A stretch of DNA of 64,000 bases. Source: Burkholderiales bacterium. Its GTDB lineage: Bacteria > Pseudomonadota > Gammaproteobacteria > Burkholderiales > Casimicrobiaceae. Positions 972 through 54,220 of this stretch are shown one piece after another. The stretch covers positions 1 to 64,000 of the forward strand of contig JANXNI010000088.1 in assembly GCA_025354165.1 (NCBI GenBank). Reading direction: 5' to 3'. Position 1 is the first letter of the stretch. Each line of letters starts with the position of its first letter. The translations under genes were made by a program, and so were the position numbers. The notes beneath the pieces are model-generated. The model made no database searches. It was given only the letters and a program-made list of their open reading frames with translations, and was not told the origin of the DNA.

Positions 972-1085
972 AGCTTTTTGCCTAAAGCACCTACCGCTTG
1001 GGGCTAAGCGCACGTTTTATCCGATAGCGACTTAATTTTTTTGCTCGTCCAGCACCGGTGAAATAATAATTTCGGCAAAATAGCT
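972..1085. repeat. 114-bp palindromic element, copy A
   Basis: AGCT to AGCT spans exactly 114 bp, with the flanks pairing further (AC outside left, GT outside right). GGGGCTA sits at element positions 29-35, as in better copies. The dyad hexamer is AGCGAC instead of GTCGAC. Arm pairing is the weakest of the set, so it looks like an old copy. It begins 27 bp after the last stop of the decayed remnant and lies upstream of the next gene. Confidence 0.6.
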
Positions 1086-1224
1086 GTAGGACGTTTTGTC
1101 AAGCTTGTTGCGCTTTGCGGACGGGAAGCAGATGATGCTGACTTCGGTGGCCGTAATTTCGCGTTCAATCCGTCTGCACGCGTGTCACGGTGCTTTTTTA
1201 TCGTGCAGTTACTGGAGAATCATC

Positions 1225-2979
1225 GTGCTCAAGCGCTTATCCGGCTCCGTGCTTTTGTCGTACGTTTCCTCGTGCTGTTACCTCGCAACCTCTCATCGTC
1301 GCCGCGGGGTTGTACTCTTGATAAGTGTGCTGTTGGCTACGACCACTAGCACCGCGATGGCAGTGGCCAGCTGCCCGTTCGACAACGGGGGCTCCGACGC
1401 ACTCAACGACGGCGTAGTGCTCACGCGCTATGCGCTCGGGATCGCAGGCGCGCCGATGATCGCCAGCACGCGGTACGCGAGCCTTGATCCCTTGCAGGTC
1501 AAGGCTAATATCGAATGCGTCGGCTGCGCGCTCGACATGAATGGCGATGGGCAAATTGACTATGTAGACACTACCATCATCGCGCGGCATCTGGCGGGCT
1601 TCACCGGAGCATCGCTCACCGCCGGCTTGGCGCTCGGAAGCGGAACCCGGCCCAATCTCGCCGCAGTCACCAGCTTCCTGGTCAACGGCTGCGGCACGAC
1701 CGGCGGCACCATCACCAGCATTGCCACCAGCGCAGGAATCCTCGGCGGGCCGATCACTTCGTCGGGAACGCTGAGCGCCGACACGACTTACTTGCAGCGC
1801 CGCGTGGCGAGCAACTGCGCAGCGGGCTCAGCCATCAACGCCATCGCCGCCGATGGCACGGTTAGCTGCGCCGTCACAGGACAGGCCAACGCTTTTGTAC
1901 AGGGTGGCAATTCGTTTGGCGCCCCGGGCGTGCTGGGTACCAATGATGCGCAACCGCTGACCGTGAAAAGCGGCGGTACCGCCATCAACCTGGTTAACCA
2001 GCGCGGTGACGGATTGCGCGTCTCATCATCGTCATCTTCGACAGCACCCAATACGATCAATGGCCACGGCGGCAATGGGGTAACGGCAGGCGTACGCGGC
2101 GCAACGGTCGGCGGCGGCGGCGACGTGCCCTTCAGCACAGTCAGTGCGAACGTCGTGTCGGGCAACTACGGCACCATCTCCGGTGGCGTCGCCAATCTGG
2201 CTGCGGACTTCGCGGTCGTAGCTGGCGGCAACACTAACAGTGCCAGCAACACCGGCGGCGTTGTATCGGGCGGATTTCAGAATGCGGCACCGGGTTTTTA
2301 CGGGACCATTGCGGGCGGGGGGACAAATTTCGCAAGCGGTGACTACAGTACGGTTGCAGGAGGTGCCAATAACTCGGCAACCGGGAAATATAGTTTCGCG
2401 GCGGGTGCAGGTGCAAGCGCCGACAAGGACGGCGCATTCGTTTGGGCAGACCACACACTGGGAACCCCGTTTACTACGTCGGCGAATTGGGCTGCTGGCT
2501 TTGGGACAAACACGTTTAGTGTCCGTGCCACGGGCGGCGTCATGTTCGCCACCAGTACCAACGCGTCGGGCGTGGCGGCGACCTATTGCTACATGGGTGC
2601 TAGTGGCACTGGATGGATCTGCACCAGTGACCGCAACGTCAAAGAGCGTATCGAGCCGATTACGCCGTCGCATGTGCTGGCGGGCGTTCTTGCGATGCCG
2701 GTGTCGACCTGGTCAATCATCGGCTCAAAAGTCCGACAAATGGGCCCGATGGCGCAGGATTTCTATCGCGCGTTCGGGCTCGGTGAGACTGACAAAGCGA
2801 TCAATTCGATTGACGTAGGCGGAGTTGCGTTTGCAGCGATTCAGGGTTTAAATGAGAAGCTGTCGGCGCAGCTTCGCACAAAGGATTCCGAGATCGCGAA
2901 ACTTAAGGCTGCGCTCGCAGAGCGCTCGGCCAGGCACGACGCGCGACTGGCCGCTATCGAGAAGCGGTTGGGGCTTTAG
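1225..2979 (+). CDS. Secreted protein: dockerin-like, YadA-head-like and S74 chaperone domains
   Basis: The chosen GTG start has GGAG six bases upstream and gives a clean signal peptide ending near AMAVAS (584 residues); the longer open frame upstream lacks these features. After the signal comes a dockerin-like segment with two calcium-loop-type motifs (NDGVVLTRYALG and DMNGDGQIDYVD, about residues 55-115) and conserved cysteines. A Gly/Ala/Asn-rich region with repeated GTIxGG and AVAGG units resembles the left-handed beta-roll head of trimeric adhesins (about 300-420). From about residue 467 an intramolecular chaperone domain of the endosialidase/S74 type starts with SDRNVKERIEPI, followed by a short coiled coil. 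Known S74 domains trimerise and cleave themselves off, so a trimeric surface or extracellular fibre is inferred. Its stop codon overlaps a 114-bp palindromic element. Confidence 0.75.
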   Translation: MLKRLSGSVLLSYVSSCCYLATSHRRRGVVLLISVLLATTTSTAMAVASCPFDNGGSDALNDGVVLTRYALGIAGAPMIASTRYASLDPLQVKANIECVGCALDMNGDGQIDYVDTTIIARHLAGFTGASLTAGLALGSGTRPNLAAVTSFLVNGCGTTGGTITSIATSAGILGGPITSSGTLSADTTYLQRRVASNCAAGSAINAIAADGTVSCAVTGQANAFVQGGNSFGAPGVLGTNDAQPLTVKSGGTAINLVNQRGDGLRVSSSSSSTAPNTINGHGGNGVTAGVRGATVGGGGDVPFSTVSANVVSGNYGTISGGVANLAADFAVVAGGNTNSASNTGGVVSGGFQNAAPGFYGTIAGGGTNFASGDYSTVAGGANNSATGKYSFAAGAGASADKDGAFVWADHTLGTPFTTSANWAAGFGTNTFSVRATGGVMFATSTNASGVAATYCYMGASGTGWICTSDRNVKERIEPITPSHVLAGVLAMPVSTWSIIGSKVRQMGPMAQDFYRAFGLGETDKAINSIDVGGVAFAAIQGLNEKLSAQLRTKDSEIAKLKAALAERSARHDARLAAIEKRLGL

Positions 2980-3091
2980 CTTTTCGCTGTACGCACCATT
3001 TCATGGGGGCTAAAGAGCGCTTTACGCAGTTGTCGATAAACTCGGTTTTGACGCATCAGCCCCCATAAAATAGTTGTTACAAAGAAAAGCT
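2978..3091. repeat. 114-bp palindromic element, copy B
   Basis: A good copy: AGCTTTTCGCTG at the left end, GTCGAT on the dyad (positions 55-60), and GGGGGCT in both arms, a five-G variant shared by the two arms of this copy only. The first two bases are the last two of the TAG stop of the upstream gene. It ends 124 bp before the start of the next paralogue. Confidence 0.9.
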
Positions 3092-3215
3092 GTCAACCAC
3101 CGCTTTTGTTGTAGACGCGATGACGCCAACGGCGTGACAATCAATGACCGACTTTCGGACGCGATTGCGTTTAATTCCACGATCATTTGAATCACGCGTT
3201 TTTTCCGGAGGTGCC

Positions 3216-4744
3216 ATGAATCACAGCAGCGGGTTACGCGCTTCAGCGCACTGGGTTTGTTTGGCTTTTGGCGCCCTTCCACATCATCATGTCCGCTTTC
3301 GCACGAAGCTTCTATCGGCAATGTTGGCGGGCTTGAGTGTGGTCCGTGTGGCGACGGCAGCATCAACTTGCCCGTTCGACACCGGCGGCTCCGACGCGAT
3401 CAACGATGGGGTCGTGCTTACGCGCATGCGCTGGGCATCACGGGCGCGCCGCTGGTCGCCAGCACTCGCTACGCGAGCCTTGACCCGTTGCAGGTGAAGG
3501 CGAACATCGAATGCGTCGGTTGCGCGCTGGATATCAATGGCGACGGCGTGGTCGATTCAGTAGACACCACCATCATCGCGCGGCACCTGGCGGGCTTTCA
3601 GGGCGCGTCGCTGACCGCCGGTCTCGCGCTTGGCAACGGCACGCGGCCCGATGTGGCGTCGGTGGTGAGCTTCCTCGCAAACGGCTGCGCGGTGGGTGGG
3701 GCGATCAATGCCTTTGTGCAGAACGGCAATTCGTTTGGCGCGCCCGCAGTGCTGGGCACGAACGACAGCCAGCCGGTGACGGTGAAGACGAATCAATCCA
3801 CGATCAAGCTCTTGGTTGATCCGGCAAATGGAGATGACGGGTTGCGGATTTCTTATGCGGCGCAAGGTTCCGACATCTCGCCGAACACCGTGAATGGCAG
3901 TCGCACTAACAGTGTTGCTGCTGGGATCGTCGGCGCGACTATTGCCGGCGGCGGTAAGCACGATACTGCAGGCGCAGACTTTCCGAATCAGATCAATGGA
4001 AACTATGGCACGATCGGCGGCGGCTATCGAAACACGATCGCGTCGAGTGGATATGAGGGAACGATCAGCGGCGGCTTCTACAACAGCGTTTCCGGCCCCG
4101 ACGCTGTCGTTGGCGGTGGCATCAGCAATACCGCCGGTGCGGGGTCGGGTAGCCAAAGCCAGACGGTCGCAGGGGGTAATTCAAATGTCGCCAGCGGTGA
4201 TTTCAGCGCCGTCCCCGGCGGTCTCCACAACACCGCCGGTGGCAGCTACAGCTTCGCAGCAGGTCGACGGGCGAAGGCGACTAACCAGGGCGCGTTCGTC
4301 TGGGGCGACAGCACCGATGCCGACGTCACCGCCACTGGCAACGACCAGTTCGTGATCCGCGCCAACGGCGGCATTCGTTTGCCGGGTGCGGGCGAGAACC
4401 AGCCTAACAATCCCACCAAGCAAAGCGGCACCAATGTGTTCACCCACGTGGTGCCCGCAAGCGGGCCGTGCAACACCGTCGGGGGATTCGGGCTGTCACG
4501 CACGGCGATTGATCATCCGCTCACCAACGGCAAACCGAACGCGATTCTGGTGGTGACTGCCAACATCGGCGTGCGCACGCAAAATATCCCGTTCTACGCT
4601 AAACCGGTGGACGTGATGTACGACGATGATGGCGGAAGCGGGTGCACCGTGTCATCGACTGGGCGCTGGATGATCGTAAATCCCAACGGCGATCAAAACA
4701 TGGTGGCAGGCATGAAATTCAACGTGTTTGTGATTAATCCGTAG
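3216..4744 (+). pseudogene. Frameshifted paralogue of the dockerin-like/YadA-head-like protein
   Basis: The start ATG at 3216 follows a strong GGAGG. The frame encodes a signal peptide and ASTCPFDTGGSDAINDGV, then breaks. Comparison with the paralogue at 1225-2979 shows one T missing between 3425 and 3426 (ACGCGC[T]ATGCG), after which LGITGAPLVASTRYASLDP continues in the -1 frame to 4744. There is no slippery homopolymer at the break, so programmed frameshifting is not suggested; a true inactivating mutation or an assembly error is more likely. The downstream part keeps the second calcium-loop motif and beta-roll repeats, but instead of an S74 domain it ends in a different unrecognised beta-rich domain (about 120 residues). 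Confidence 0.7.
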
Positions 4745-4794
4745 GGCGGTGGGAGCGGTTTCACGGCGATGGGTTGTTGCCCAGCGCGTGATGC

Positions 4795-4908
4795 CACTTT
4801 TCGCTGAGAACGCCGTTTCATAGGGGCTATAGGCGATATTATGGAATAGTCGCCTTTCACAAAAAACGGCATCTAGCCCTTATAAAACAAGCATTTCAGA
4901 AAAAAGCT
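4795..4908. repeat. 114-bp palindromic element, copy C
   Basis: It lies between converging genes, 50 bp after one stop and 29 bp before the other. The left end is degenerate (CACTTTTCGCTG) and the right arm ends in AGCT. GTCG is on the dyad, and AGGGGCTA/TAGCCCTT sit at the expected arm positions. Confidence 0.85.
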
Positions 4909-4937
4909 ATACCGAGCCCATGCGCAATGGCACCACG

Positions 4938-5999
4938 CTACTTGCGCCTAATCCCCAAAACGCTCGGATCATTCGTGTTGATCGCTTTGACAAAAAAACG
5001 CACCTGCTGATCCAGGGCGTTGGTCGCTAGCCCGTCGCGCACCATCGCTGCACTGACCGCTGAGGGCAAGTCGTCGCCCGCGCACGCACCAAACTGCCAG
5101 CACGCGTCCCGCAGTGCAAGGCTGTCGCGCCCGCAGTACGCCCCGAGTTGACACAGCGCGAGCTGCCAGGCGAGCGAGCTCGACGCTGCCGCCGAGGCAT
5201 CGCCACCGACGAACGCAGCGCCCAACGCGGGGGCAATTTGCGCGCCCATTAGCGAAAGTACCGCCATGTTTTTTTCGCTCATCGCGTTGGTGATGACGGA
5301 GAGCTGTTCTGCCGAGAGCGATTTGTAGTTTAAATCTGGGCTCAACTGGCTTATGACGGCGCCCGCGTTCGATCCCTTGTTGGTCAATTGAGTCATTGCG
5401 GCGTCGGCATCCGTTCGCACCGAGGTTACGTTGAAATCTTTGCAACTTTCGGTGATCCAGCGGGCGTTGTCGAGACGCCGCGGATCGGTCGCATCGATGC
5501 CGGCCGTCGAGGTTTTGGCACGCATCGAGATGGGCGGCGGTCCCCCGGATGCGGCCTGCGCTTTAGCGTCTGCAGCCGTGTGAGCCAGACAAAAATCAAC
5601 GAGCAGCAACGAAAGGGCATTTAGTTGTGCGTCGTCTGCCTTGGCCGCGTCGGCAATTGCGCGGGCGATATTTCGGTGTGACAGGACTTCAGCGACCCGG
5701 GCTTGCCCAGGCCGCAATTTCTCCGGCGCTGAAGGCGACGGCAGTGCTGGCAAGTCGAGGGCCGTCGCGCGCTGACTGCCACTGCTTTGTCCGGCGCTAA
5801 CCTCGATAGGCGCTTGCACGACGATTCGGGATTCGTTGCTGCCGGCTTGTCCCGAAGCCGACGAAGCGTTCGCTTTTGTACGCGAGGCGTCGGCGGTGTT
5901 TGACGACGAATAGCCGAAACTAAAGCTATCGCGCCAATACCAACCGGCCAGCGCGAGAAGCGCCAACACGGAGAGAAGGACGTGCGCTCGTTTCACCAA
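4938..5999 (-). CDS. Uncharacterised envelope-anchored protein
   Basis: I do not recognise a family. The 353-residue product starts with a basic tip and one hydrophobic segment (about residues 7-23), so it is probably exported and anchored in the inner membrane facing the periplasm. A low-complexity Ser/Ala/Gly linker follows (about 30-75), then an Ala-rich, mostly helical domain. A cluster of cysteines near the C-terminus (LCQLGAYCGRDS and ACWQFGACAGDD) suggests disulfides. It sits alone, downstream of hemA on the same strand with a 53-bp gap, and converges on the frameshifted paralogue. A function cannot be assigned. Confidence 0.65.
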   Translation of the reverse strand: MVKRAHVLLSVLALLALAGWYWRDSFSFGYSSSNTADASRTKANASSASGQAGSNESRIVVQAPIEVSAGQSSGSQRATALDLPALPSPSAPEKLRPGQARVAEVLSHRNIARAIADAAKADDAQLNALSLLLVDFCLAHTAADAKAQAASGGPPPISMRAKTSTAGIDATDPRRLDNARWITESCKDFNVTSVRTDADAAMTQLTNKGSNAGAVISQLSPDLNYKSLSAEQLSVITNAMSEKNMAVLSLMGAQIAPALGAAFVGGDASAAASSSLAWQLALCQLGAYCGRDSLALRDACWQFGACAGDDLPSAVSAAMVRDGLATNALDQQVRFFVKAINTNDPSVLGIRRK

Positions 6000-6052
6000 A
6001 GTGCAGCCCTAAAGTTCAAGGAACGTAGCGCGCCAAAACTTCGAACGCGGGC

Positions 6053-7291: not shown

Positions 7292-7297
7292 AACACG

Positions 7298-8188: not shown

Positions 8189-8254
8189 GAGCGGCTTGCC
8201 GCGACCAACCGTTGACATGCCTCCGAACTGGGTCACGGCAAGCCGCTCCTACAA
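8183..8254. repeat. 72-bp REPIN-like inverted pair
   Basis: Two REP-like arms face each other: TTGTAGGAGCGGCTTGCCG on the left, and its near-perfect complement ending in CTCCTACAA on the right (22 of 23 positions match). The unit resembles the GTAGGAGCGG-type REP sequences known from Pseudomonas and Xanthomonas. It fills the folP-glmM gap and supplies folP's stop codon. The second copy at 22982 is also 72 bp. Confidence 0.85.
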
Positions 8255-8262
8255 TACCGCGC

Positions 8263-9606: not shown

Positions 9607-9623
9607 TTGCTTAGGCTTTAGCC

Positions 9624-10313
9624 GTGAAACTCACTTACTCCCACGTCGATCTCGCCGCGCTCGTCATCTTTGCTCTGTGCTGGTTCGGCTACGCGTGGTT
9701 TGCTGCGCGGCGCAGTTCGGGTCGCCATAGTTTGCTCAATGTGATGAACCCGTTGCGTGAGCGCTGGTTTGAGCAGACGCTGACGCGCGAAAATCGCATC
9801 GTAGACACCGCGCTGGTGGCTAATTTATTGCACAGCGCGACGTTTTTTTCGTCGACGACGATTCTCGTTTTAGGTGGTCTGCTGGCGCTGTTTGGCTCGG
9901 CGGAAAAGAGCACTGAGATTCTCGAAAACCTGCCCTTCGCGCAGCGCAGCACCGCGCAGCTACTGGAGTTAAAGATTGTGGTTTTGATCCAGCTCTTCGT
10001 CTACGCGCTGGTGAAATTTACGTGGTCGGTGCGGCAGTTCAATTTTGTAACGATCCTGATTGGCTCGATTTCGCCGAAAGACAAAATTACCGACGTGGAT
10101 CGTACGGCCGCGAAAAGCGCCGCCGGGATTTTGAAGCTCGCCGGTGAAAATTTTGGACAAGGAATGCGTGCCTATTATTTCGCTGCGGCGGGGCTGATGT
10201 GGTTCGTGCAGCCGCTCTTTTTTATCGTGGCAACCCTGGTCGTCACGTTCATGCTTTATCGCATGGAGTTCCACTCACGGACGCTGGATGTACTCTCGGA
10301 AAACCAGAATTAA
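9624..10313 (+). CDS. DUF599-family membrane protein
   Basis: A 229-residue inner-membrane protein starting with GTG 17 bp after glmM. Hydrophobic segments are visible at about residues 10-28, 66-90, 120-142 and 185-212, with the conserved family region around NPLRERWFEQTLTRENRIVD and LVKFTWSVRQFNFV. These features match the DUF599 family, whose function is unknown. It probably belongs to the folP-glmM transcription unit. The final base of its stop codon starts copy D of the 114-bp palindrome. Confidence 0.8.
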   Translation: MKLTYSHVDLAALVIFALCWFGYAWFAARRSSGRHSLLNVMNPLRERWFEQTLTRENRIVDTALVANLLHSATFFSSTTILVLGGLLALFGSAEKSTEILENLPFAQRSTAQLLELKIVVLIQLFVYALVKFTWSVRQFNFVTILIGSISPKDKITDVDRTAAKSAAGILKLAGENFGQGMRAYYFAAAGLMWFVQPLFFIVATLVVTFMLYRMEFHSRTLDVLSENQN

Positions 10314-10426
10314 CATTTCGCTGTATCCGTTGATGCACGCGGGCTCAAGGCGAAAAATTAATGAAGTCGATAAGTGGTAAAACTTGGCGTCTAGCCCCAG
10401 TGCAATGGTCATTTCAGCGTAAAGCT
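10312..10426. repeat. 114-bp-type palindromic element, copy D, overlapping a start codon
   Basis: The left end AACATTTCGCTG overlaps the upstream TAA; the right end is CAGCGTAAAGCT. GTCGAT is on the dyad at 10366. Both arms share a TGCAC variant. The ATG of the next gene (10361) lies just before the dyad, so the whole right arm is translated. Total length is 115 bp, one base longer than most copies. Confidence 0.9.
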
Positions 10427-14845: not shown

Positions 14846-14959
14846 AGCTTTCGGGTGAAATGCCGTCTGATCGGGGGACAGTTGCGATTTTTATGAAAAA
14901 TCGACAATTGCATTTTCTATTATGTAGCCCCTGTGCAGCGGTGCTTTCAGCAGTAAGCT
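14846..14959. repeat. 114-bp palindromic element, copy E
   Basis: It starts 48 bp after the preceding stop. Ends are AGCTTTCGGGTGAAA on the left and CAGTAAGCT on the right, and the outer flanks TC and GA pair as well. ATCGAC lies on the dyad, and the right arm has TAGCCCC at the standard position. Confidence 0.88.
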
Positions 14960-17674: not shown

Positions 17675-18381
17675 TGATATAGGTTTCGGCGAGGGTGGCA
17701 AAGCGGAGAGCGTAGCGCAAGCTGCGCCAAGCCGCTTTTTTGTGATCTGGGTGTGCTGACACCTCAGGCGGAGCGCGATCAATGCGGCTCAGGCCAATCG
17801 GCAGGGGGAACTTCCGACCATAGCGTTATAGCCGCGCTTGCGTTGACCCTAGCGTCGACCCACGCGACCTTCGAATCATCGTGTGGTGAGCCCAGCAATC
17901 GATCACCGGCGCAGCGTTACTGCGACATTTCATTCTCTCTCGATGGTGTGATGGAATCGCCCCGCCTCGTCGACTCAGGAATCGACGAGTAAGGCTACTT
18001 TGAACAATTAGTGAGACCGTGAGTGAATTTTCTGCTTGGTAGCAAGCGATGGCAGATCACTCCTGTGAAAAATTAGTGAGCACCTGTTGGCATGCTGCGC
18101 AACTAGCAATTTTGATAGTTGTTGCGTCACATGCTTTTTGGGAATATCGGTGTATAGGCAGCCGAAGTGAGTGTCACTTGGTGTGTCGGTGAATAGCTTG
18201 CGACATGCCGTTCCACGATCAGATCTTTCGTGAGCAGTGTGACCTGACTCCGGATTAAGAAACGCCGGGTGGTGTAGAGCGTAAATGACTTCTGATTGTG
18301 GCAGCGTACACACTCCCCAATCTCAGAGACCGCGCTTCCAAGTTGAACTCAACATGTCGTGATCAAATTTGGAGAGTCCTG
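17675..18381. other. 707-bp intergenic region between divergent genes
   Basis: No convincing gene: the frames at 17753-17992 (+) and 18008-18313 (-) lack ribosome-binding sites and family resemblance. A perfect 8-bp stem CTCGTCGA/TCGACGAG with an 8-base loop lies at 17966-17989. The region must hold the promoters of the two flanking, divergent genes. Its length and lower GC around 18000-18170 suggest remnants of lost genes. Confidence 0.5.
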
Positions 18382-20133
18382 ATGCCTGCTTCCGCCGTCG
18401 CCCTCTGCGCTATCGCGCATTCATATCGCATATTGTTTCGGGATGGTTTAAGGCAAATTTCTGCTTTATCTCAGCCGCGCACAGTTAGTCGCAGAAGTCG
18501 CGTCATTGCATCATTAATGGTGCTGGCGTCCGTGCCGCTGAGCGCGCAAACGATTCAAATGGGCGTCGCAACAGGCTTTGGCGTGCTAGGCGCTTCAGCG
18601 GTCACCAGCACAGGATCGAGTGTCGTGGTGGGCGATTTGGGGATCACGCCGAACACGTCAAGCTCGGTGACCGGTTTTTCATTTTCGACGCCACCTGGTG
18701 CGGGTCAAGTCATCGGAACGCCTCATTTTGCTGATGCCGTCGCAGCGACTGCGAAGAACGATGCCGCGACTGCCTACACGTCGGCAGCGGGACGTGCCTG
18801 CAACGCCGCGATCTCGGCGGACTTGGGTGGCAGCACGCTCGCTCCCGGCGTCTACTGCGCGACGTCGTCGATGGGTCTCACTGGCACCCTGACACTCGAT
18901 GCCCAAGGTAATCGCGATGCCGTATTTATCTTCCAGATCGGCACCGCGCTTACGACCGCATCGGCGTCGCAGGTTCGCGTCATCAACGGCGGTCAGAGCT
19001 GCAACGTGTTTTGGCAGATTGGCAGTTCTGCCACACTGGGTACGGGGTCGAGCTTCGCTGGCAATCTCCTTGCGCTGACGAGCATCACCATGAACACCGG
19101 TTCCAGCAATAACGGTCGTGCCATCGCGCTCAACGGGGCCGTCACGCTCGACAGCAGCAATGTCACGGCGTGCACCCTCGCCGTCAATAACCCGACAGTT
19201 AGTGTGTCGTTCACGGCACCAACGATTAACGCGGGCGGGACGTCCGTATTGACAATCACCGTGACAAACCCGAATCTTTCCGTCGCAACGTTGATTGCTG
19301 CGATGTTTGCCAACCTGCCGCCTGGTCTGGTCGTCGCGCCTCAACCAAATGCAGGCAGCACGTGTGGTGCTGCAACGCTGAGTGCGGTCGCAGGCGCATC
19401 GAGTGTAAGCGCGTCTCCCGGCATGACCATAGCGGCGAACGGCAGTTGCACAATCAACGTGAGCGTGGTTGCACCCGTCGGTGGCACCTATGTCGTCACG
19501 GCACCGGTCGGAATGTTGACCACCAGCAACGGCAGCAACGTGGCGCCCTCGGTGGCGACATTCATCGTTATTCCAGCGGTAGTGACGATCAATGCTGCGC
19601 CGCTTCTCGGCAAATCGTTTCTCCCGGCGACGATCAACATGGGCGGAAACTCAACGTTGAACATCACGCTCAGCAATCCAAACAACACCATCGCCACCCT
19701 GACTGCACCACTCGTCGACGCTTTGCCGAGCGGTGTGGTGATTGCCAATCCGAGCGGCGCTTCGACTACCTGCGGCGCCGCGCTTCCGGTCGCGCAGTCT
19801 GGCGCTACATCGGTTACTTTGCCATCGGGCGCAACGATTCCAGCGGCGGGCAGTTGCGTCGTCAGCGTCAACGTAACTGTGAGCTCAGCCGGAACTTATT
19901 TAAATCAGTTAAATGTTGGCGCACTGGCAACGAGTAATGGCGTCAACCCCGATCCAGCACTGGCCACCCTAACTGCGGTGCTGGTGGCATTCACTCCACC
20001 CAGCGCGACGGCACAACAGATTCCGTCGCTGTCGGTTTACACGTTGTTCTCCATCAGTCTGATAGTGCTGGTCACTGGATTCAGACGTCTGCGGCACCGA
20101 GCCCAGAGAAAGTCATACGGCTTTTTTGTTTAA
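18382..20133 (+). CDS. DUF3494 ice-binding-like protein with IPTL-CTERM-type tail
   Basis: A 583-residue secreted protein; ATG 18382 has GGAG upstream. After an N-terminal hydrophobic region comes a DUF3494 (ice-binding-like) beta-solenoid, roughly residues 60-270. Its motifs are FGVLGASAVTSTGSSVVVGD, TPGVYC-like LAPGVYCATSS, AVFIFQIG and CNVFWQIGSSATLGTGSSF. Two DUF11/Ig-like modules with TLTITVTNPN-type strands follow. The C-terminus has IPSLSVYTLFSISLIVLV followed by RRLRHRAQRK, the motif-helix-basic layout of IPTL/PEP-CTERM sorting tails. Family members bind ice or act as cell-surface adhesins; ice binding itself is unproven here. The last codons and TAA come from the 114-bp element F. 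Confidence 0.85.
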   Translation: MPASAVALCAIAHSYRILFRDGLRQISALSQPRTVSRRSRVIASLMVLASVPLSAQTIQMGVATGFGVLGASAVTSTGSSVVVGDLGITPNTSSSVTGFSFSTPPGAGQVIGTPHFADAVAATAKNDAATAYTSAAGRACNAAISADLGGSTLAPGVYCATSSMGLTGTLTLDAQGNRDAVFIFQIGTALTTASASQVRVINGGQSCNVFWQIGSSATLGTGSSFAGNLLALTSITMNTGSSNNGRAIALNGAVTLDSSNVTACTLAVNNPTVSVSFTAPTINAGGTSVLTITVTNPNLSVATLIAAMFANLPPGLVVAPQPNAGSTCGAATLSAVAGASSVSASPGMTIAANGSCTINVSVVAPVGGTYVVTAPVGMLTTSNGSNVAPSVATFIVIPAVVTINAAPLLGKSFLPATINMGGNSTLNITLSNPNNTIATLTAPLVDALPSGVVIANPSGASTTCGAALPVAQSGATSVTLPSGATIPAAGSCVVSVNVTVSSAGTYLNQLNVGALATSNGVNPDPALATLTAVLVAFTPPSATAQQIPSLSVYTLFSISLIVLVTGFRRLRHRAQRKSYGFFV

Positions 20134-20232
20134 CCCATGCAGATAAGGGTCTAACGCTGGATTTGTTCTGTTATCGAGTTTCGTTAAAAACGACGTCTAG
20201 TCCTTGATAAATATGGGTTAAGTAGAAAAGCT
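20119..20232. repeat. 114-bp palindromic element, copy F, overlapping a stop codon
   Basis: The left arm starts inside the coding region (GGCTTTTTTGTTTAACCCAT) and contains the TAA stop; the right arm ends in AGCT. Both arms carry TTAACCCAT, a variant found only in this copy. ATCGAG is on the dyad at positions 55-60. Confidence 0.9.
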
Positions 20233-26674: not shown

Positions 26675-26788
26675 AGCTTTTTCGCAGAAGCCATACTAAG
26701 CTGGGGCTAGCGCAAATTTACGAAGCAAGTCGACTTACATGATTTTACGTGGCTAGCCCAGGATAATCGGTGATTTCGCGGAAAAGCT
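26675..26788. repeat. 114-bp palindromic element, copy G
   Basis: Lies between converging genes. AGCTTTTTCGCAG on the left, CGCGGAAAAGCT on the right, a full GTCGAC on the dyad extended to AAGTCGACTT, and GGGGCTAGC/GCTAGCCC at the arm positions. One of the cleanest copies. Confidence 0.92.
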
Positions 26789-33295: not shown

Positions 33296-33409
33296 AGCTT
33301 TTTAATGAAAGCGCCTCTGATTGAGGGCGTAAGGCTAATTGAGACAAAAGTCGACAAATGACTATTTTTGACTTGACGCCTCGCAAAATAGTCATTTCAG
33401 GAAAAAGCT
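33296..33409. repeat. 114-bp palindromic element, copy H
   Basis: AGCTTTTTAATGAAAGCGCC on the left, TCATTTCAGGAAAAAGCT on the right, full GTCGAC on the dyad. Both arms share a GAGG(G)CGT variant in place of GGGGCTA, so the two arms of this copy match each other better than they match other copies. It lies 48 bp past the stop of the leftward trhO gene. Confidence 0.9.
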
Positions 33410-36276: not shown

Positions 36277-36391
36277 AACTTTATTGTAGAAACACCGCTA
36301 CATAGGGGGTAGCGGCTAATTTTATGAAAAGTCGGCTTTATGCGTAAAACGGCTTGTCGCCCTCGTGCAAATTGACTTTCAAGATAGAGCT
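36277..36391. repeat. 114-bp-type palindromic element, copy I
   Basis: Between converging genes. Left end AACTTTATTGTAGAAA, right end AAGATAGAGCT, GTCGGC on the dyad, GGGGGTAGCGGC in the left arm against GCCCTC in the right. Slightly decayed; 115 bp with the right arm one base longer. Confidence 0.75.
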
Positions 36392-40288: not shown

Positions 40289-40348
40289 AGCTTTTGGCTG
40301 CAAGCCTTGTTATTCAGGGGCTACGCTTGGATATTGGTAAAAGTCGAA
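40289..40348. repeat. Half copy (left arm) of the 114-bp palindrome, copy J
   Basis: AGCTTTTGGCTGCAAGCC onward with GGGGCTACGC at positions 29-38 and GTCGAA exactly at positions 55-60. Similarity then stops; the expected right arm is absent and a ribosome-binding site (GGAGGA at 40355) and gene start follow directly. Confidence 0.8.
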
Positions 40349-45293: not shown

Positions 45294-45294
45294 C

Positions 45295-45408
45295 AGCTTT
45301 TCTCTAAATGCCTTGTTAAACGGGGGCTAAGCGTTATTTAGGCAAATAGTCGATAAATTGACTATTTGCCTGCTAGCCCCTGTGCAGTGGTGTTTATATG
45401 AAAAAGCT
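45295..45408. repeat. 114-bp palindromic element, copy K
   Basis: Starts one base after TAA of the pirin gene, and lies between converging genes. AGCTTTTCTCTAAATGCC on the left, ATATGAAAAAGCT on the right, AC/GT pairing outside, GGGGCTA/TAGCCCC at 29-35 and 80-86, GTCGAT on the dyad. Both arms carry GGCAAATAGTC/GACTATTTGCC, an 11-bp perfect match unique to this copy. Confidence 0.93.
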
Positions 45409-47455: not shown

Positions 47456-47485
47456 ACTCTTCTCGCTGGTGAATGCGCGGAATAT

Positions 47486-47521
47486 ACCCGGGTAAATTTA
47501 AGCTGTCAAATTTACCCGGGT
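47486..47521. promoter_or_regulatory. Long inverted repeat with two TACCCGGGTA palindromes
   Basis: ACCCGGGTAAATTT (47486-47499) and AAATTTACCCGGGT (47508-47521) form a perfect 14-bp inverted repeat around an 8-base spacer. Each arm itself holds the palindrome TACCCGGGTA, 28 bp apart. It lies between the divergent DUF2239-MATE pair and the DMT transporter, where an operator would be expected. The binding protein is unknown. Confidence 0.7.
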
Positions 47522-47571
47522 AAATTGTGTGAGGCGTGAGATTTGCGGGCGGCACACACATAATCCATCTT

Positions 47572-48618: not shown

Positions 48619-48647
48619 TGGGCTACGTTGCCCTTTCCCCGAGGACG

Positions 48648-49670
48648 CTAGCCCGTAATTCGCAATCCCGGTTCCTGCATCGCCGCAATTTGCTCGCGCA
48701 GCTCCAGTACGCGATCCTGCCAATAGCGTTGCGTGTTGAACCACGGGAAGGCGGCAGGAAAGGCCGGGTCGTGCCAGCGGCGGGCGATCCAGCCTGAATA
48801 GTGCAATAGGCGCAGCGTGCGCAGCGCTTCGATCAGTTTCAATTCGTTGTCGTCAAATTCGCAGAAATCCTCGTAGCCTTTGATGATGCTCGCGAGCTGG
48901 CCCTGCATCGCATCGCGCTCGCCGGAGAGCAGCATCCATAAGTCCTGCACAGCGGGCCCCATGCGGCAGTCGTCAAAGTCGACGAAGTGCGGACCGCTGT
49001 CGTTCCACAGCACGTTGCTCGCGTGGCAATCGCCATGCAGGCGGATCGATTTCACCGTACCGACGCGGCCAAATATTTCGCGAATACCATCGAGTGCCAT
49101 CGCGCTCACGCTCGACCACGCGGGTAGCAAATCCGTCGGTATGAAGTTGTTGTCGAGGAGGAAAGCACGCGGTTCGATGCCGAAGGATTCGATGTTGAGT
49201 GTGGGTCGGTCGGCGAACGGACGCAGCTCGCCAATGGCGTGAATTCGACCGATGAATCGGCCCATCCAGGTGAGTGTTTCCATGTTGTCCAGCTCGGGCG
49301 ATCGGCCCGACAATCGCGGCGTGACCGAGAAACGAAAACCTTCAAATTCGTTTAGTGTTTTGCCGCTGAGCGTCATCGGCGGCACCGCCGGAATTTCGCG
49401 CTCCGCTAACTCTGCGACGAAGGCGTGTTCTTCGAGAATCGCAGCCGTCGTCCATCGTTGCGGACGATAGAACTTGGCGACCACGCTCACGCCGTGCGGC
49501 ACCGGCTCTTCCAGCCAAACCTGATACACGCGGTTCTCGTAACTGTTGAGCGCAATCAGGCGACCATCGCCGCGCAGGCCGACCGATTCGAGTGCGTTGA
49601 GCACGGTGTCGGGCGTGAGTAACGCGTAGGGCTGCGCGGACGTGGGCGTTGCAGTGGCAGTGGTAGACAT
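48648..49670 (-). CDS. srkA: Stress-response kinase A (YihE/SrkA)
   Basis: A 340-residue protein kinase-like enzyme of the APH/YihE group. Motifs: ALNSYENRVYQVWLEE and VVAKFYRPQRW (ATP-binding Lys), the catalytic loop RLHGDCHASNVLWNDSG, and VDFDDCRMGPAVQDLW (Mg-binding DFD). In E. coli SrkA phosphorylates proteins and counters stress-induced cell death. Length is standard. It converges on the DMT gene with about 29 bp between stops. Confidence 0.92.
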   Translation of the reverse strand: MSTTATATPTSAQPYALLTPDTVLNALESVGLRGDGRLIALNSYENRVYQVWLEEPVPHGVSVVAKFYRPQRWTTAAILEEHAFVAELAEREIPAVPPMTLSGKTLNEFEGFRFSVTPRLSGRSPELDNMETLTWMGRFIGRIHAIGELRPFADRPTLNIESFGIEPRAFLLDNNFIPTDLLPAWSSVSAMALDGIREIFGRVGTVKSIRLHGDCHASNVLWNDSGPHFVDFDDCRMGPAVQDLWMLLSGERDAMQGQLASIIKGYEDFCEFDDNELKLIEALRTLRLLHYSGWIARRWHDPAFPAAFPWFNTQRYWQDRVLELREQIAAMQEPGLRITG

Positions 49671-49962
49671 GCCCGATTATCGCAACGTGGCCGTTTGTCG
49701 ATGCTTGACCCGGGCACTTCGGCGGCCGCATAGCTCATTCGTTCGGATTGCGGACGCCCACGAAAAGAGTGTCGCCCTTGTTCAGCTTCTAGAAAGCCGT
49801 GATTGACCGGAGTATCGGTGCGATATGTGCACTCCTACTTAAACTATTCGTGGAGTCAGTTCAAAAGTAAATCGTCCCTTCGCAGAAACGTTTAGAAGCA
49901 CCGCGTTCGGAATCTTCTGTGTGCGTATAAAAATATATATTGGCGTCGCAAACTTATATTAC
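49671..49962 (+). other. Intergenic region upstream of the cassette pair
   Basis: About 290 bp without a gene. It must hold the srkA promoter. Close to the cassettes, an AT-rich stretch TATAAAAATATATATTGG (49926-49943) could serve as the promoter that drives the cassettes, but no consensus pair was seen. No integrase or attI could be recognised. Confidence 0.45.
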
Positions 49963-49978
49963 GTTAGGCATCACGGAA

Positions 49979-50422
49979 ATGCAGACTCAAACCGCCGCGC
50001 TTAACTTTGCCCTTGAAGTCGAAGACGGCTGGCCGCCTGTAGCTACTGAGTGCCTTCCGGTCAAAACAACCGACGAATCCCACACCGTACTAGTTGCGCC
50101 TCTGTTCATAAAGGGCCTGTCGGTCGGAGACGTTGTGCAGGTGGTTAGCGAATCTGAAGGCATCGTCTACGAGTGGCGCCACCTGAGCAAGTCGAAAAAC
50201 TCAACGGTATGGTTTCTACGGCGCGGAGAAGTCGAGATAGAGCCGCTCCTTGCACCAATTCGAGAGCTTGGCTGTAATACAACTTGGTCTTCTCAGCTCG
50301 GTGTCGGTTCCATTGAAGTCCCGGAGAGCGTCAGTGCCGAAGCACTAGACAAGTGCCTTGAAGCGCTCGAAATTCCCACCTTCGCGCTTGCCTTTCCCTC
50401 TTGGAGGCACACTGATGCCTAA
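49979..50422 (+). CDS. DUF4265-family cassette protein
   Basis: A 147-residue cytoplasmic protein, first gene of the cassette pair. It matches the DUF4265 family (NFALEVEDGWPPVATECLPV, LFIKGLSVGDVVQVV, STVWFLRRGEVEIEPLL, ALEIPTFALAFPSW), which is often found in gene cassettes and toxin-immunity-like contexts, with no known biochemical role. The ATG at 49979 lies nine bases after the left core site. Its TAA is inside the attC R'' box GCCTAAC, as is usual for integron cassettes. Confidence 0.8.
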   Translation: MQTQTAALNFALEVEDGWPPVATECLPVKTTDESHTVLVAPLFIKGLSVGDVVQVVSESEGIVYEWRHLSKSKNSTVWFLRRGEVEIEPLLAPIRELGCNTTWSSQLGVGSIEVPESVSAEALDKCLEALEIPTFALAFPSWRHTDA

Positions 50423-50485
50423 CCCTTCAATCGGGAGGACGTCACCCGGCAAGCCGGGCGCCGCCTCTCATCTCAAACGTTAGGC
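50417..50485 (+). repeat. attC site 1
   Basis: A 69-bp attC: R'' GCCTAAC at 50417, R' GTTAGGC at 50479. The outer pairing extends to GATGCCTAAC/GTTAGGCGTC. Inner, weaker pairing follows (TTCAATCGGGAGG with CCTCTCATCTCAAA), and the tip hairpin is CCCGGC-AA-GCCGGG. The bottom strand would fold into the structure that integron integrases recognise. Confidence 0.88.
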
Positions 50486-50488
50486 GTC

Positions 50489-51220
50489 ATGACCAATCCG
50501 ATCCGCATGCGCAGATGCAGAGATTGCAAGGTCCAGTTCTCGTCAGAGCTCGCCACGGCGAGTGACGGTAATCTGGCACCTCGCGGGTTCTACTGTCCCT
50601 CGTGCGGTCAGCGTAGGGCCCGAGAGTACCAAGAGTCGTTGCGACAGAGAGAGATCAATATCGCGAGAAATCTGTGGGCCGCGTATCAAGGGTGGTGGAA
50701 GCATTTCACACCTCCACGCGGCTGGCCCACTCTCTTGCGAACCGAAAGCGCAAACTGTCCATACTGTGGATGCCTGTTAACCGATGACTGGACGTCTCGC
50801 TCTGTGTCGACAGTAGTCATCGATCACATGGACCCACTATCGCTAGGCGGCGAAGACTCACTCAGAAATTCCGTCTACTGCTGCTATCGCTGCAATGGGA
50901 CAAAGAAGAATAAACTCTTTACTCGCTGGCTTTCTGAACTCTCGGAGCAATTCCGCACTCATTCGCGCGCGCTGTACGCCTTCAAGCACGAGCATCAACC
51001 TGAGGCCTTTGAACCCGGTCCCTATGAACTAAGACGCGAAGGAGTCCCGATGTTTCTTGAGTTCGACGAAAAGCAATTCAAGCGCGAGTTGCGCGGTATG
51101 CTTCCCCTAGCCGGCGAACCACCTTCAGCGTACTTGTTAGCCCTGCTTCAACCGCATCCAGGGCCTGTCAGTATCGAAAGCATGATCTATCGCCCCTCTC
51201 TCGTAAGCGATGACGCCTAA
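50489..51220 (+). CDS. HNH endonuclease, cassette-borne
   Basis: A 243-residue protein, second cassette gene; ATG 50489 lies three bases after attC1. Residues about 8-45 form a zinc ribbon (RRCRDCKVQFSS, then YCPSCGQRRARE). An HNH domain follows with CPYCGCLLTDDW, VVIDHMDPLSLGGEDSLRNS (His, Asn) and CCYRCNGTKKNK, so a metal-dependent DNA nuclease is likely. The C-terminal third (from about 155) is of unknown function. Cassette HNH proteins are often defence or toxin factors, but this is inference. Its stop is inside attC2. Confidence 0.88.
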   Translation: MTNPIRMRRCRDCKVQFSSELATASDGNLAPRGFYCPSCGQRRAREYQESLRQREINIARNLWAAYQGWWKHFTPPRGWPTLLRTESANCPYCGCLLTDDWTSRSVSTVVIDHMDPLSLGGEDSLRNSVYCCYRCNGTKKNKLFTRWLSELSEQFRTHSRALYAFKHEHQPEAFEPGPYELRREGVPMFLEFDEKQFKRELRGMLPLAGEPPSAYLLALLQPHPGPVSIESMIYRPSLVSDDA

Positions 51221-51286
51221 CCCGGCGCTCAATTGGACCCGCTACGGCAGGCCAGCCTGCCAGGGCCGGTTAGCTCCACGTTAAAC
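51215..51286 (+). repeat. attC site 2
   Basis: A 72-bp attC: R'' GCCTAAC at 51215, then CCGGCGCTCAA, a tip hairpin GGCAGGC-CA-GCCTGCC, GGTTAGCTCCAC, and R' GTTAAAC at 51280. The CCGGCGCTCAA...TTAGCTCCAC pair resembles widely distributed attC sites in Xanthomonas and other proteobacteria. Confidence 0.9.
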
Positions 51287-51413
51287 GTCACGTAGCGAAC
51301 CGAGTGAAGATGGCCAATGCGTCGGGTATCGCAAATGTCTCGACCTGACGCAGATCAGTAGCGACAACCTTCGAATTGAGATAATTGACGCCGTTTCCAC
51401 GCTGGCTTCTCTT

Positions 51414-52220
51414 GTGCTTTTTCACTCCGCGTTTTACAAGTTCGTCGAAGTCGCTGATCCCGATGCAATTGCGGAATCGTTGCGTGACGTTGCGCGCGAG
51501 TTGACTGGCAGCATTCTCGTCGCGGTTGAAGGCATCAACGGCGTGGTTGCCGGGACGACCGACGTGCTGGATGCATTCGAATTGGCATTGACGCAGGACG
51601 CGCGTTTTGGTGGCGCTTTCGCGGGCATCGTGTTCAAGCGCAGCGCGTGCACGTCGCGGCCGTTTTTCAAAATGCGCGTTCATGTGAAGCGTGAGATCGT
51701 CGCCTTTGGCATTGATGGCGTTCGGCCTGATGCCGACGGCAACAACAACGTGAGTCCTGCGCAGTGGCGAGAGCTGATCGCGCGCGACGATGTGGTGATC
51801 ATAGATAACCGCAACAGCTTTGAATATCGCCTCGGAAAGTTCAAGGGCGCAATCGATCCGCTCGTACCAAACTTTCGCGATTTTCCAAAATATGTGGAAA
51901 CCAACGCACCCGCATGGAAGGCAGAAGGCAAGACGGTTGCGATGTATTGCACGGGCGGCATTCGTTGCGAAAAATCAAGCGCGTGGATGCAGGATTTGGG
52001 CTTGAACGTCGTGCAGCTTGAGGGTGGAATTCTTAATTACTTTCAGTCGATGCCCGATGCCGAAAAGGATTGGGAAGGCGAGTGTTTCGTGTTCGATAAT
52101 CGCATCGCGATCGACACGAAATTGCAGGAAACAGCGACGACCTACGAAGAGGTTTATGCGGCAGAGCCCGATGGTGAATGGCGCGTCGCTCGGGCGAAGC
52201 GGCTCGATCTAGCGGGCTGA
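51414..52220 (+). CDS. TrhO-like rhodanese family protein, second paralogue
   Basis: A 268-residue homologue of the trhO product at 33458. N-terminal acylphosphatase-like part: SAFYKFVEVADPDAIAESL, TGSILVAVEGINGVVAGTTD; rhodanese part with active-site loop YCTGGIRCEKSSAW (about residue 180). The chosen GTG start at 51414 fits the family start LFHSAFYKFV; upstream there is no in-frame ATG. It follows attC2 by 127 bp and is separated from the next gene by one base, suggesting a transcript with the pseudouridine synthase, both acting on tRNA or rRNA. Confidence 0.83.
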   Translation: MLFHSAFYKFVEVADPDAIAESLRDVARELTGSILVAVEGINGVVAGTTDVLDAFELALTQDARFGGAFAGIVFKRSACTSRPFFKMRVHVKREIVAFGIDGVRPDADGNNNVSPAQWRELIARDDVVIIDNRNSFEYRLGKFKGAIDPLVPNFRDFPKYVETNAPAWKAEGKTVAMYCTGGIRCEKSSAWMQDLGLNVVQLEGGILNYFQSMPDAEKDWEGECFVFDNRIAIDTKLQETATTYEEVYAAEPDGEWRVARAKRLDLAG

Positions 52221-52221
52221 T

Positions 52222-53163
52222 TTGCGCAATATCGTTCGACCCGCACGCGATGGTGTGAGCGCTAGTTGCGTCGCGCTGCCGTCGCAGCAAGCGGGTGCTT
52301 GGCGTACGGTGCTTGATTTTCTGGTTGAACGATTTCCGGCGATTTCGCGAGACGTGTGGCTGGCGCGTATGAGCGTTTGTGCGGTGAGCAACGAGGTCGG
52401 CCTTTGCATCACTGCGCAAACACCATTCACGCCGCATCAAAAAATTTATTACTACCGAAGCGTCGCGGACGAACCGCACATTCCGTTTGCAGAGACCATC
52501 GTGTTTCAGGATGAGCACATCGTCGTCGCCGACAAGCCGCATTTCTTGCCTGTGGTTCCTGCCGGGCGATTTGTGCAGGAGACTTTGCTGGTTCGCCTCA
52601 AGCGCAAGCTCGGCATTGACACCTTGTCACCAGCACATCGAATTGATCGCGATACGGCGGGTCTCGTGATCTTTACGGTTCAACCGAACGCGCGCGATGC
52701 CTATCAGCGGCTGTTCCGTGATCGGGTGGTTGAAAAACGCTATGAGGCAATTGCCCCAGCGCCACCGGCAAGCGCGAGTCACACTTTTCCGCGGACGCGT
52801 TGCAGCCGTCTGATCGAAAGCGATGCGTTTATGCAAATGCACGAAGCACCTGGCGAGCCCAATGCGGAAACACGTATTGAGCTAGTCGAAACGCGAGGGA
52901 CTTTGGCTCGCTACGTATTGCAACCCTTGACCGGGCAGAAGCATCAATTGCGCGCTCATATGGCAGCGCTGGGCATTCCGATTGTTAATGATCGCATTTA
53001 TCCAAATTTGCTCGCTGAAGAGGCATTGGATGATTTCCTGAAGCCGCTGCAACTGTTAGCTAAAGAAATTGCGTTTGTTGATCCGATTACCGGACATTCG
53101 CGGCGATTTTCGAGTCTTCAGCGACTGATGGCGCTTGAAACTGATGTCGACACGCAGACGTGA
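52222..53163 (+). CDS. RluA-family pseudouridine synthase
   Basis: A 313-residue enzyme that isomerises uridine in RNA. The catalytic motif is AHRIDRDTAGLVIFT (Asp about 141), with conserved KPHFLPVVP before it and LQPLTGQKHQLRAHMAALG (RLHQ-like) after it, and the terminal NDRIYPNL. The N-terminal segment is S4-like in position but shows little similarity. It starts with TTG at 52222, one base after the trhO-like stop. It resembles RluA/RluC-type enzymes, but the exact target is uncertain. Confidence 0.88.
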   Translation: MRNIVRPARDGVSASCVALPSQQAGAWRTVLDFLVERFPAISRDVWLARMSVCAVSNEVGLCITAQTPFTPHQKIYYYRSVADEPHIPFAETIVFQDEHIVVADKPHFLPVVPAGRFVQETLLVRLKRKLGIDTLSPAHRIDRDTAGLVIFTVQPNARDAYQRLFRDRVVEKRYEAIAPAPPASASHTFPRTRCSRLIESDAFMQMHEAPGEPNAETRIELVETRGTLARYVLQPLTGQKHQLRAHMAALGIPIVNDRIYPNLLAEEALDDFLKPLQLLAKEIAFVDPITGHSRRFSSLQRLMALETDVDTQT

Positions 53164-53212
53164 CGCGGCGGCACCTATTATTCACGGCTAAATCTACGAG
53201 GAGAGAATTCGC

Positions 53213-53989
53213 ATGAACAGTCTGCCTGTCAATACGTTTAAACAAATGCTTGTGGCCAACAAGGTATTGATTGGGCTCTGGTGCAACTTCGCGCATCTGC
53301 CAATCACTGAAATCGTCTCGCAATCGGGATTCGACTGGCTGCTGCTCGACATGGAGCATTCGCCGACCGATCTTGGCACTATCGGCATGCTGCTGCTCGC
53401 CACAAAAAATTCGTCGACGCATGCGGTGGTGCGCGTGCCTTCGAACGATATGACCACCATCAAGCGCGCGCTCGATACGGGCGTCACAAACCTCATGATC
53501 CCGAATATCCGCAGCGCGGCGGAAGCGGCGCAGGCTGTGGCGTACACGCGTTTTGCGCCGCAGGGACTGCGTGGTGTGGCCGGGAGCACGCGCGGCGGTG
53601 GCTACTCGCGCTACAAGGATTACATGGCGCGTGCCAACGACGAAATCGGTCTCGTGTTGCAGATCGAGACGCCCGAAGCTTTGGCTGAGCTTGATGCGAT
53701 TTGCCGAACACCGGGTGTAGACGCCGTATTCATCGGGCCAGCGGATCTTGCGGCTTCGCTTGGTTATCGCGGCCTCGCCAACGGACCTGAAGTGCAAGCG
53801 GAAATCAGCAAAGCCTTTGCCGTTGCCAAAGCCGCGAACAGAGCCATCGGCATCCTCAGCACCGACGGTAACGCGGCGAAATATCTGGAGCAGGGCGCAA
53901 CGCTCGTTGGCGTCGGCACCGACGTGCATGTGATGGTGCGTGCGGCCGACGAGCTCGCGGCGAAGTTCAAGGATTGGCAGGGCAAGTAG
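53213..53989 (+). CDS. HpcH/HpaI-type aldolase
   Basis: A 258-residue metal-dependent class II aldolase of the HpaI family (4-hydroxy-2-oxoacid or 2-dehydro-3-deoxyglucarate aldolase). Motifs: GLWCNFAHLPITEIVSQSGF, DWLLLDMEHSPTDLGT, RVPSNDMTTIKRALDTGVTN, MIPNIRSAAEAAQAV, LQIETPEALAELDAI and FIGPADLAASLGY. The Glu and Asp metal ligands are in QIETPE and FIGPADLAAS. GAGGAGAG precedes the ATG. No pathway neighbours define the substrate. A TAGGGTGCGCA repeat follows its stop. Confidence 0.9.
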   Translation: MNSLPVNTFKQMLVANKVLIGLWCNFAHLPITEIVSQSGFDWLLLDMEHSPTDLGTIGMLLLATKNSSTHAVVRVPSNDMTTIKRALDTGVTNLMIPNIRSAAEAAQAVAYTRFAPQGLRGVAGSTRGGGYSRYKDYMARANDEIGLVLQIETPEALAELDAICRTPGVDAVFIGPADLAASLGYRGLANGPEVQAEISKAFAVAKAANRAIGILSTDGNAAKYLEQGATLVGVGTDVHVMVRAADELAAKFKDWQGK

Positions 53990-54000
53990 CCGATTGAGAG

Positions 54001-54088
54001 TAGGGTGCGCATCAAAATGCGCGCCATCGTGGCGCGTGTCCAAACGTGGAAATTACGAACGAATGTGTGCACATTGGTGCGCACCCTA
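54001..54088. repeat. TAGGGTGCGCA-type palindromic repeat
   Basis: 88 bp bounded by TAGGGTGCGCA and TGCGCACCCTA, a perfect 11-bp inverted pair. Inside are a second inverted pair (AATGCGCGCC with GGCGCGT) and the sequence TGGAAATTACGAACG. It is related to the copy at 30885. Both copies lie between converging genes. Confidence 0.8.
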
Positions 54089-54106
54089 TTTGTCCGTTGC
54101 CCTGAT

Positions 54107-54220
54107 AGCTTTTCGGCGAAATGGCGTTTTTACGAGGGATACAATCGAAAAACGCTGATTGTCGATAATCTAGCAAATTAAGTGCTACCCCAAATGCAGT
54201 GGCGTTTACAGCGAAAAGCT
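54107..54220. repeat. 114-bp palindromic element, copy L
   Basis: Between converging genes, 13 bp from the leftward LysE stop. AGCTTTTCGGCGAAATGGCG on the left, TGGCGTTTACAGCGAAAAGCT on the right (ends AGCTTTTCGGCG/CAGCGAAAAGCT), flanks AT/AT pairing, GTCGAT on the dyad inside GATTGTCGATAATC. The GGGGCTA boxes are altered (GAGGGATA, TACCCC). Confidence 0.92.

Follow-up and report, generated by a model that had tools for sequence, protein, structure and literature searches.

What is the family of imperfect palindromes, each about 114 bp long, that recurs along a 64,000-nucleotide stretch of a Burkholderiales genome (contig JANXNI010000088.1 of assembly GCA_025354165.1)? This whole stretch, here called the window (G000:C81:1-64000), is part of a 4.72-Mb genome assembled into 97 contigs (G000, hereafter the home genome). 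An initial annotation of the window had proposed either a selected structure or a mobile unit resembling a miniature inverted-repeat transposable element (MITE). Our analysis suggests, with fair probability, that the element is a double-stranded, dyad-symmetric site that wraps around a symmetric assembly of bound protein and would organise chromosome topology. We arrive at this reading because of its near-fixed geometry, its phased flanks, the lack of pairing covariation, its even spacing and its persistence in place between species.

Copy number, length, spacing and persistence

The pattern AGCTTTTN{84,110}AAAAGCT matched 127 times in the home genome, compared with two matches for the reversed pattern, and chance is thereby excluded. 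This exact-end pattern permits lengths of 98-124 bp, yet nearly all among the matches listed were 114 bp long. A profile hidden Markov model (HMM) was built from 24 exact-end copies of the home genome, some of them from the window, and applied to a sample of 781.5 kb (the window and 717.5 kb of contigs C72, C4 and C83). The sample holds 86 places, one of which is weak (E 0.0015), and extrapolation to the whole genome gives approximately 490-520 copies; the lower estimate (490) leaves out the window because the latter is denser than average. Both ends were legible in 78 copies, of which 65 were 114 bp long, nine 115 bp, two 116 bp, one 113 bp and one 117 bp. Five of the 86 best matches, including the weak one, broke off at model positions 59-78, at or beyond the centre. 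One cut-off copy (C72:223521) adjoins sequence that in a related genome (L023) runs directly into a full copy.

Pairwise identity among the 65 copies of 114 bp averaged 0.542, with a maximum of 0.693. When sequences were drawn independently from the column profile, the mean was 0.543 and the maxima were 0.64-0.71; the spread of the observed identities was a little wider than in these draws (standard deviation 0.045 vs. 0.037). There is no sign of recent duplication, and the copies resemble each other no more than do sequences drawn independently from their profile. Conservation differs greatly among columns, from the invariant C3 (2.0 bits) to the random column 41 (0.01 bits). The symmetry centre (dyad) is TCGA at positions 56-59 of 114. 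The distance from the inner box GGGGCTA to its partner TAGCCCC was readable in 66 of the 78 home-genome copies and was 44 bp in 56 of them. In G003, a distant species of the genus, it was readable in 34 of 52 hits, 33 of which had 43-45 bp; such a box pair was held by eight of 520 random windows. Constant length in spite of drifting sequence, which had been noticed in the window, is a property of the family in the home genome: 65 of the 78 full copies have a length of exactly 114 bp, with a mean identity of approximately 54%, and lengths do not vary freely but stay within 113-117 bp.

The elements are also regularly spaced. Across 82 gaps in the home genome, the mean gap was 8.9 kb with a coefficient of variation (CV) of 0.65, compared with 0.98 (0.80-1.21) for random intergenic junctions. 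Gaps shorter than 2 kb made up 2% of the total, compared with 18% for random junctions, and none of 2000 draws was as low on the CV or on the share of short gaps. In G003, the mean gap was likewise 8.9 kb, with a CV of 0.70 vs. 0.93 for random junctions (p 0.012) and 2% vs. 16% of gaps below 2 kb (p 0.001). The density was much the same in both species, at approximately 109 elements per Mb in the home genome and 104 in G003. One long gap of the home genome (C72:159-192 kb) contained housekeeping genes among the ten proteins scanned.

Of the 83 home-genome elements with both neighbours, 24 lay between convergent, 40 between tandem and 13 between divergent genes, and six lay within called genes. 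Convergent junctions were occupied in 24 of 136 cases and divergent junctions in 13 of 137 (excess p 0.053). Further, 29 of the 40 tandem elements were nearer the 3' end of the upstream gene, and among the 64 intergenic elements flanked by a gene's 3' end, 50 were located within 50 bp of it, indicating that the position bias seen in the window is present in the wider sample.

Elements from other species were mapped to the home genome. Among 132 full elements from nine other genomes, 123 had usable flanks and 12 mapped to a syntenic junction. Ten of these 12 intervals contain a home-genome element, and the two without are both from JAPUER. Random controls mapped in 67 of 432 cases and none of the 67 contained an element; this control is lenient because most random positions lie inside genes. 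In a like-for-like control, three of three mapped element junctions of the home genome hold a G003 element, compared with none of 21 mapped element-free junctions; one further G003 element junction was excluded, as its mapped gap exceeded 1500 bp. Direct alignments placed the elements of L042, L046 and L065 close to their home-genome counterparts, several of them within a few bases. The orthologous elements were 50-60% identical, which is within the range of random pairs: nine of the ten did not exceed the 95% level for random pairs and one (JAGNQL) was slightly above it. No empty sites were indicated by gap lengths in G003. As judged from these comparisons, the sites persist in place between species while their letters turn over.

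Distribution and dialects of the family

Among the genera sampled, the family was confined to a single one of the Burkholderiales, in which 16 of 17 genomes carry it. A covariance model matched every genome of the genus except G011 and none of 47 genomes from six other genera of the family; the exact-end pattern with TCGA matched 13 of the 17 and likewise none of the 47. In a sample of the order (120 genomes, 78 genera), matches occurred only in the two members of this genus. A pattern scan across 84,980 species, each represented by a single genome, returned at least 92 stretches, of which 85 came from eight uncultured Burkholderiales or Proteobacteria metagenome-assembled genomes; the remaining seven came from unrelated records and their sequences were chance-like. 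Dialects that are too divergent escape such pattern scans, and exact-end patterns left some relatives looking empty, for example 100-kb pieces of G002, G003 and G006. In the case of G003 this seeming emptiness was due to dialect: an iterated HMM in its own dialect gave 52 hits in 500 kb and none in the reversed sequence.

Most species examined have in common the ends AGCTTTT, GTCGAC at the dyad and, close to position 44, a triplet of A/T, and the part that varies between dialects is the inverted repeat within each arm. GGGCT-type arms account for 71-100% in the home genome, JANXUB, JANXNO, JAPUER (G014) and G001, and GGTCGTT-type arms for 62-67% in JAEUPL (G008), JAGNQL (G009) and JAKPSO, the other type being present in the minority. 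G003 retains GGGGCTA and its spacing (44 bp modal, like the home genome), but not the usual ends or TCGA. In a tree of a single gene, gyrA, G008 grouped with G014 and G001, both of the GGGCT type, and G009 grouped with G015, beside the home genome and G012. The GGTCGTT type is split on this tree, and therefore the second alphabet arose, or was retained, in more than one lineage.

Two individual copies stand apart from these types. A JAPUER element (L088:7455-7569) has a left arm with a perfect inverted repeat (ACGTAGATC...GATCTACGT) that resembles neither dialect. A G001 copy (L143:5074-5186, corresponding to G001:C1:25074-25186) best fits the GGTCGTT-type models (E down to 9e-18); the 20 typed G001 arms are all of the GGGCT type.

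A proposed wrapped site and the alternatives to it

Does the conserved structure act as a folded strand or as duplex DNA? For covariation between arms, inside each arm and at the centre, row shuffles in eight genomes served as the null, and two of the 32 tests gave p<0.05, both in JANXNO. The dependence between columns was mainly between neighbours, such as positions 44-45 (TT or AA) and 54-55 (AG or TA). A mutual-information signal at 49-66 was not accepted as real, since it was inflated by counting both strands. The lack of pairing covariation argues against selection for an RNA or single-strand hairpin.

The A/T-rich positions of the home-genome elements lie, from the dyad outward, at approximately 4, 13, 23, 33, 43, 52, 59, 67, 77 and 89 bp. 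In the flanks, an A/T wave of approximately 10.6 bp continues to approximately 100-110 bp from the dyad. Over 58-150 bp, all 1000 shuffles fell short of this wave, and for 100-150 bp alone p was 0.048. No letters are conserved outside the home-genome elements beyond W-W-C next to AGCT; as for target-site duplications, possible repeats at the flanks were noted by eye in one or two copies. Among seven genomes examined for flank phasing, four beat all 500 shuffles and one gave p 0.03, and these five had nearly the same phase. The structure therefore appears to behave as a double-stranded, phased, protein-wrapped site and not as an RNA or single-strand hairpin.

In a site of this kind, a core of 114-116 bp, or approximately 180-200 bp with the phased flanks, would be bound and wrapped. 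Positive supercoils accumulate where transcription units end, and at these points the site could serve as a topological anchor or as a sink for supercoils. The binder may be a nucleoid protein of the genus with drifting specificity, which would give rise to the species dialects, or DNA gyrase reading the A/T-G/C phase and not exact letters; a genus-specific nucleoid protein is our preferred candidate. A bacterial histone-fold protein (PF00808) was rejected as the binder, as it was found in none of the 17 genomes. The near-constant length, the occupation of the same sites in other species and the regular spacing strongly support selection on the exact architecture, in agreement with the first half of the proposal made from the window.

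Bacterial sites that are dispersed, inherited in place and bound by a dedicated protein are already represented by parS, matS and KOPS, which the elements resemble in this respect. These sites are approximately 8-16 bp long, whereas the elements are 114-116 bp, phased and present at approximately 500 per genome with even spacing.

More tentatively, and with distinctly less confidence than the wrapped site itself, we suggest that the family may form a genus-wide, chromatin-like grid. Each chromosome would carry approximately 450-500 evenly spaced, dyad-symmetric wraps of 180-200 bp as selected, hard-wired topological anchors at transcription-unit ends. The recognition code would drift and switch between two alphabets while the sites stay, with a nucleoid protein and hundreds of sites changing together. 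Supercoil domains are approximately 10 kb in size. It is a long-standing question whether the boundaries of supercoiling domains in bacteria are fixed and encoded, and, if the grid is real, one conserved, evenly spaced site per approximately 9 kb at gene ends would make it directly testable. Further, the respelling of hundreds of binding sites together between species without their moving is not readily explained by current ideas on the co-evolution of sites and factors.

Several observations weigh against the wrapped site as the explanation. Conservation amounts to approximately 85 bits per element (uncorrected for sample size), which is beyond the needs of a binding site. The density was lower in G001, at 70 per Mb (28 places in 400 kb with nine models together). 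Flank phasing was absent in JAEUPL (p 0.67) and gave p 0.088 in JAKPSO, and in G003 the flanks of 22 copies were significant in only one of four intervals (p 0.01). Inside the element, a period of approximately 7.25-7.5 bp outdoes 10.5 bp in several genomes, and the claim of phasing therefore rests on the spacing of the peaks and on the flanks and not on a clean spectrum. The gene calls behind the positional data are crude, and the mapping between species is loose, with five of the ten shared intervals longer than 600 bp. The MatE-like gene beside the best copy in the window had no nearby element in four relatives (nine models); these loci are not the same junction, because the Pirin neighbour is not adjacent there. 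Finally, the GGGCT and GGTCGTT dialects, placed in separate branches of the GyrA tree, are not well explained by simple co-evolution between one protein and hundreds of sites.

An unlikely alternative is that the elements are strong sites for DNA gyrase itself. On this account, the enzyme would make its 4-bp staggered cut at TCGA, wrap the arms on its two GyrA C-terminal domains and remove positive supercoils downstream of genes, as a fixed and multiplied analogue of the BIME-2 and Mu strong gyrase sites of E. coli. The E. coli motif is reported to be 130 bp long with a core from -16 to +19 and flanks of period 10.75 bp, enriched downstream of operons and in BIME-2 (PMC6379681). The elements have a dyad about a 4-bp centre and phased arms, as a gyrase site would, and their 4-bp dyad symmetry, A/T-G/C phasing of approximately 10 bp, approximate size and position downstream of genes agree with this published motif, in which G/C is phased at approximately 10 bp and which lies downstream of transcribed operons. 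Further, GyrA of the home genome matches the C-terminal blade family six times, and wrapping is therefore expected. This is reported as the usual number for gyrases (PMC12324340), and an unusual gyrase was rejected as an explanation.

By cut-site preference, the agreement is poor. The preferences reported for gyrases are -4G, -2A and +1G (PMC12324340). With TCGA taken as the overhang, five genomes depart from two of these three: -4G occurs in 5-19% and +1G in 0-4% of copies (T at +1 in 92-100%), with -2A in 38-73%. Phasing in the home genome continues to approximately 100-110 bp from the dyad, past the ±65 of the E. coli motif. The GyrA proteins of G012, G008 and G003 are 87-98% identical to that of the home genome, yet G008 and G003 use dialects very different from the home one, and the letters within a genome are more conserved than indirect readout would require. 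Unlike the E. coli motif, the Mu site and BIME-2, the elements are letter-conserved within a genome, nearly fixed in length (114-116 bp), evenly spaced and kept in place between species. Gyrase thus appears to be the closest known system by anatomy, but not by the preference of its cut site.

It is very improbable that the elements act as RNA or single-strand structures at mRNA 3' ends, such as bidirectional terminators or hairpins for stability or processing. Their placement after genes would suit this role, and for eight of the 12 window copies only 0-5 of 200 shuffles folded better (five copies with z<-4). However, the folding of the other four, including the half copy, was matched by 19-52 of the 200 shuffles, and the covariation expected of a selected stem was absent from the tests described above. 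Terminator-like sites (a stem-loop followed by a T run) showed no excess over shuffles in two 20-kb parts, where they overlapped one of eight elements. A scan of the window against Rfam gave zero matches.

We give still less credence to a MITE-like or REPIN-like unit moved by a transposase in trans, the constant length of which would reflect the youth of the moved copies or a requirement of the enzyme. Such a unit would produce copies between genes in their hundreds, bounded by inverted ends and of AT-rich composition (43% GC vs. 55% in other intergenic DNA), target immunity could yield the even spacing, and a relative of the Y1 transposases was found in 15 of the 17 genomes (1-7 matches each, the home genome included). 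However, the 65 copies include no near-identical pair, their highest identity (0.69) lying within the null maxima. Orthologous sites are common to species (ten of 12 and three of three) and, in this between-species comparison, show no pattern of insertion polymorphism. The match in the home genome is a single partial one (G000:C58:14400-14648) with an internal stop; the RAYT/REPIN reading is weakened, as no intact Y1 gene was found there.

A stretch of G001 (C1, approximately 110.4-215.4 kb; L147-L152) has no elements in 105 kb, where approximately ten would be expected from the other 295 kb, and an element at approximately 110.3 kb borders it. Ten proteins from two 20-kb pieces of this stretch (L148 and L150) comprised a TraC-like protein, a Tn3 transposase, a topoisomerase, a DUF3577 protein and six without a Pfam match. 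Because of these four genes, the stretch is probably an integrated conjugative element. The suggestion of a MITE-like mobile unit in the initial annotation therefore fails, given the lack of recent duplicates, the shared orthologous junctions and the absence of elements from this conjugation-gene stretch.

No description of the family was found among the papers listed from the open-access literature searched, which were on REP, ERIC, BIME, gyrase, supercoiling and unrelated subjects, and the elements matched no REP, MITE or BIME family described there. ERIC sequences are likewise intergenic imperfect palindromes of similar size (127 bp) with tens to hundreds of copies, but those of pestis range from 69 to 127 bp (PMC2267715), whereas our elements are near-constant in length and without pairing covariation. 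REP, BIME and REPIN sequences with TnpA-REP are similar in that they form hundreds of extragenic palindromic units, with two inverted units per element (PMC3733652, PMC8266576, PMC2817692). REPs, however, are reported to be 20-40 bp long and tagged with GTAG or CGTC (PMC3733652), whereas the elements are 114 bp, have ends without such a tag and no close copies, and no intact Y1 gene was found in their own genome.

An old burst of a single repeat that is now merely decaying, with column rates differing for mutational reasons, would account for the star-like relations among copies and for the shortened copies (five of the 86 best matches), but it deserves hardly any weight, since the kept length and the uneven column conservation (2.0 to 0.01 bits) are not given by neutral decay, species with replaced letters still keep the sites, and the spacing is even in both the home genome and G003.

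Copies in the window

The HMM found exactly 12 places in the window. These are the eleven full copies and one half copy of the initial annotation, each at the position given there, and the lengths also agreed: nine full copies of 114 bp and two of 115 bp, with a half copy of 60 bp. None has an assigned strand.

972..1085, no strand: full element, 114 bp, 10 bp upstream of a called open reading frame (ORF) start (HMM, length check)
2978..3091, no strand: full element, 114 bp, whose first two bases complete the stop codon of ORF 1096-2979
4795..4908, no strand: full element, 114 bp, left end decayed, convergent genes on both sides
10312..10426, no strand: full element, 115 bp, whose first two bases complete the stop codon of ORF 9624-10313
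14846..14959, no strand: full element, 114 bp (HMM)
20119..20232, no strand: full element, 114 bp, left end decayed; ORF 18298-20133 terminates 15 bp inside
26675..26788, no strand: full element, 114 bp, convergent genes on both sides
33296..33409, no strand: full element, 114 bp (HMM)
36277..36391, no strand: full element, 115 bp, convergent genes on both sides
40289..40348, no strand: left half alone (model positions 1-59), stops at the dyad
45295..45408, no strand: full element, 114 bp, top match to the model, between convergent Pirin-like and MatE-like genes
54107..54220, no strand: full element, 114 bp (HMM)

The claim that all copies lie at the 3' end of a gene was only partly right, and it does not apply to the copy at 972, which precedes a called ORF. 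Five copies had been placed between converging genes; by our crude gene calls there are four. The mean gap between elements in the window was 4.8 kb, compared with 8.1-11.6 kb on the other three sampled contigs.

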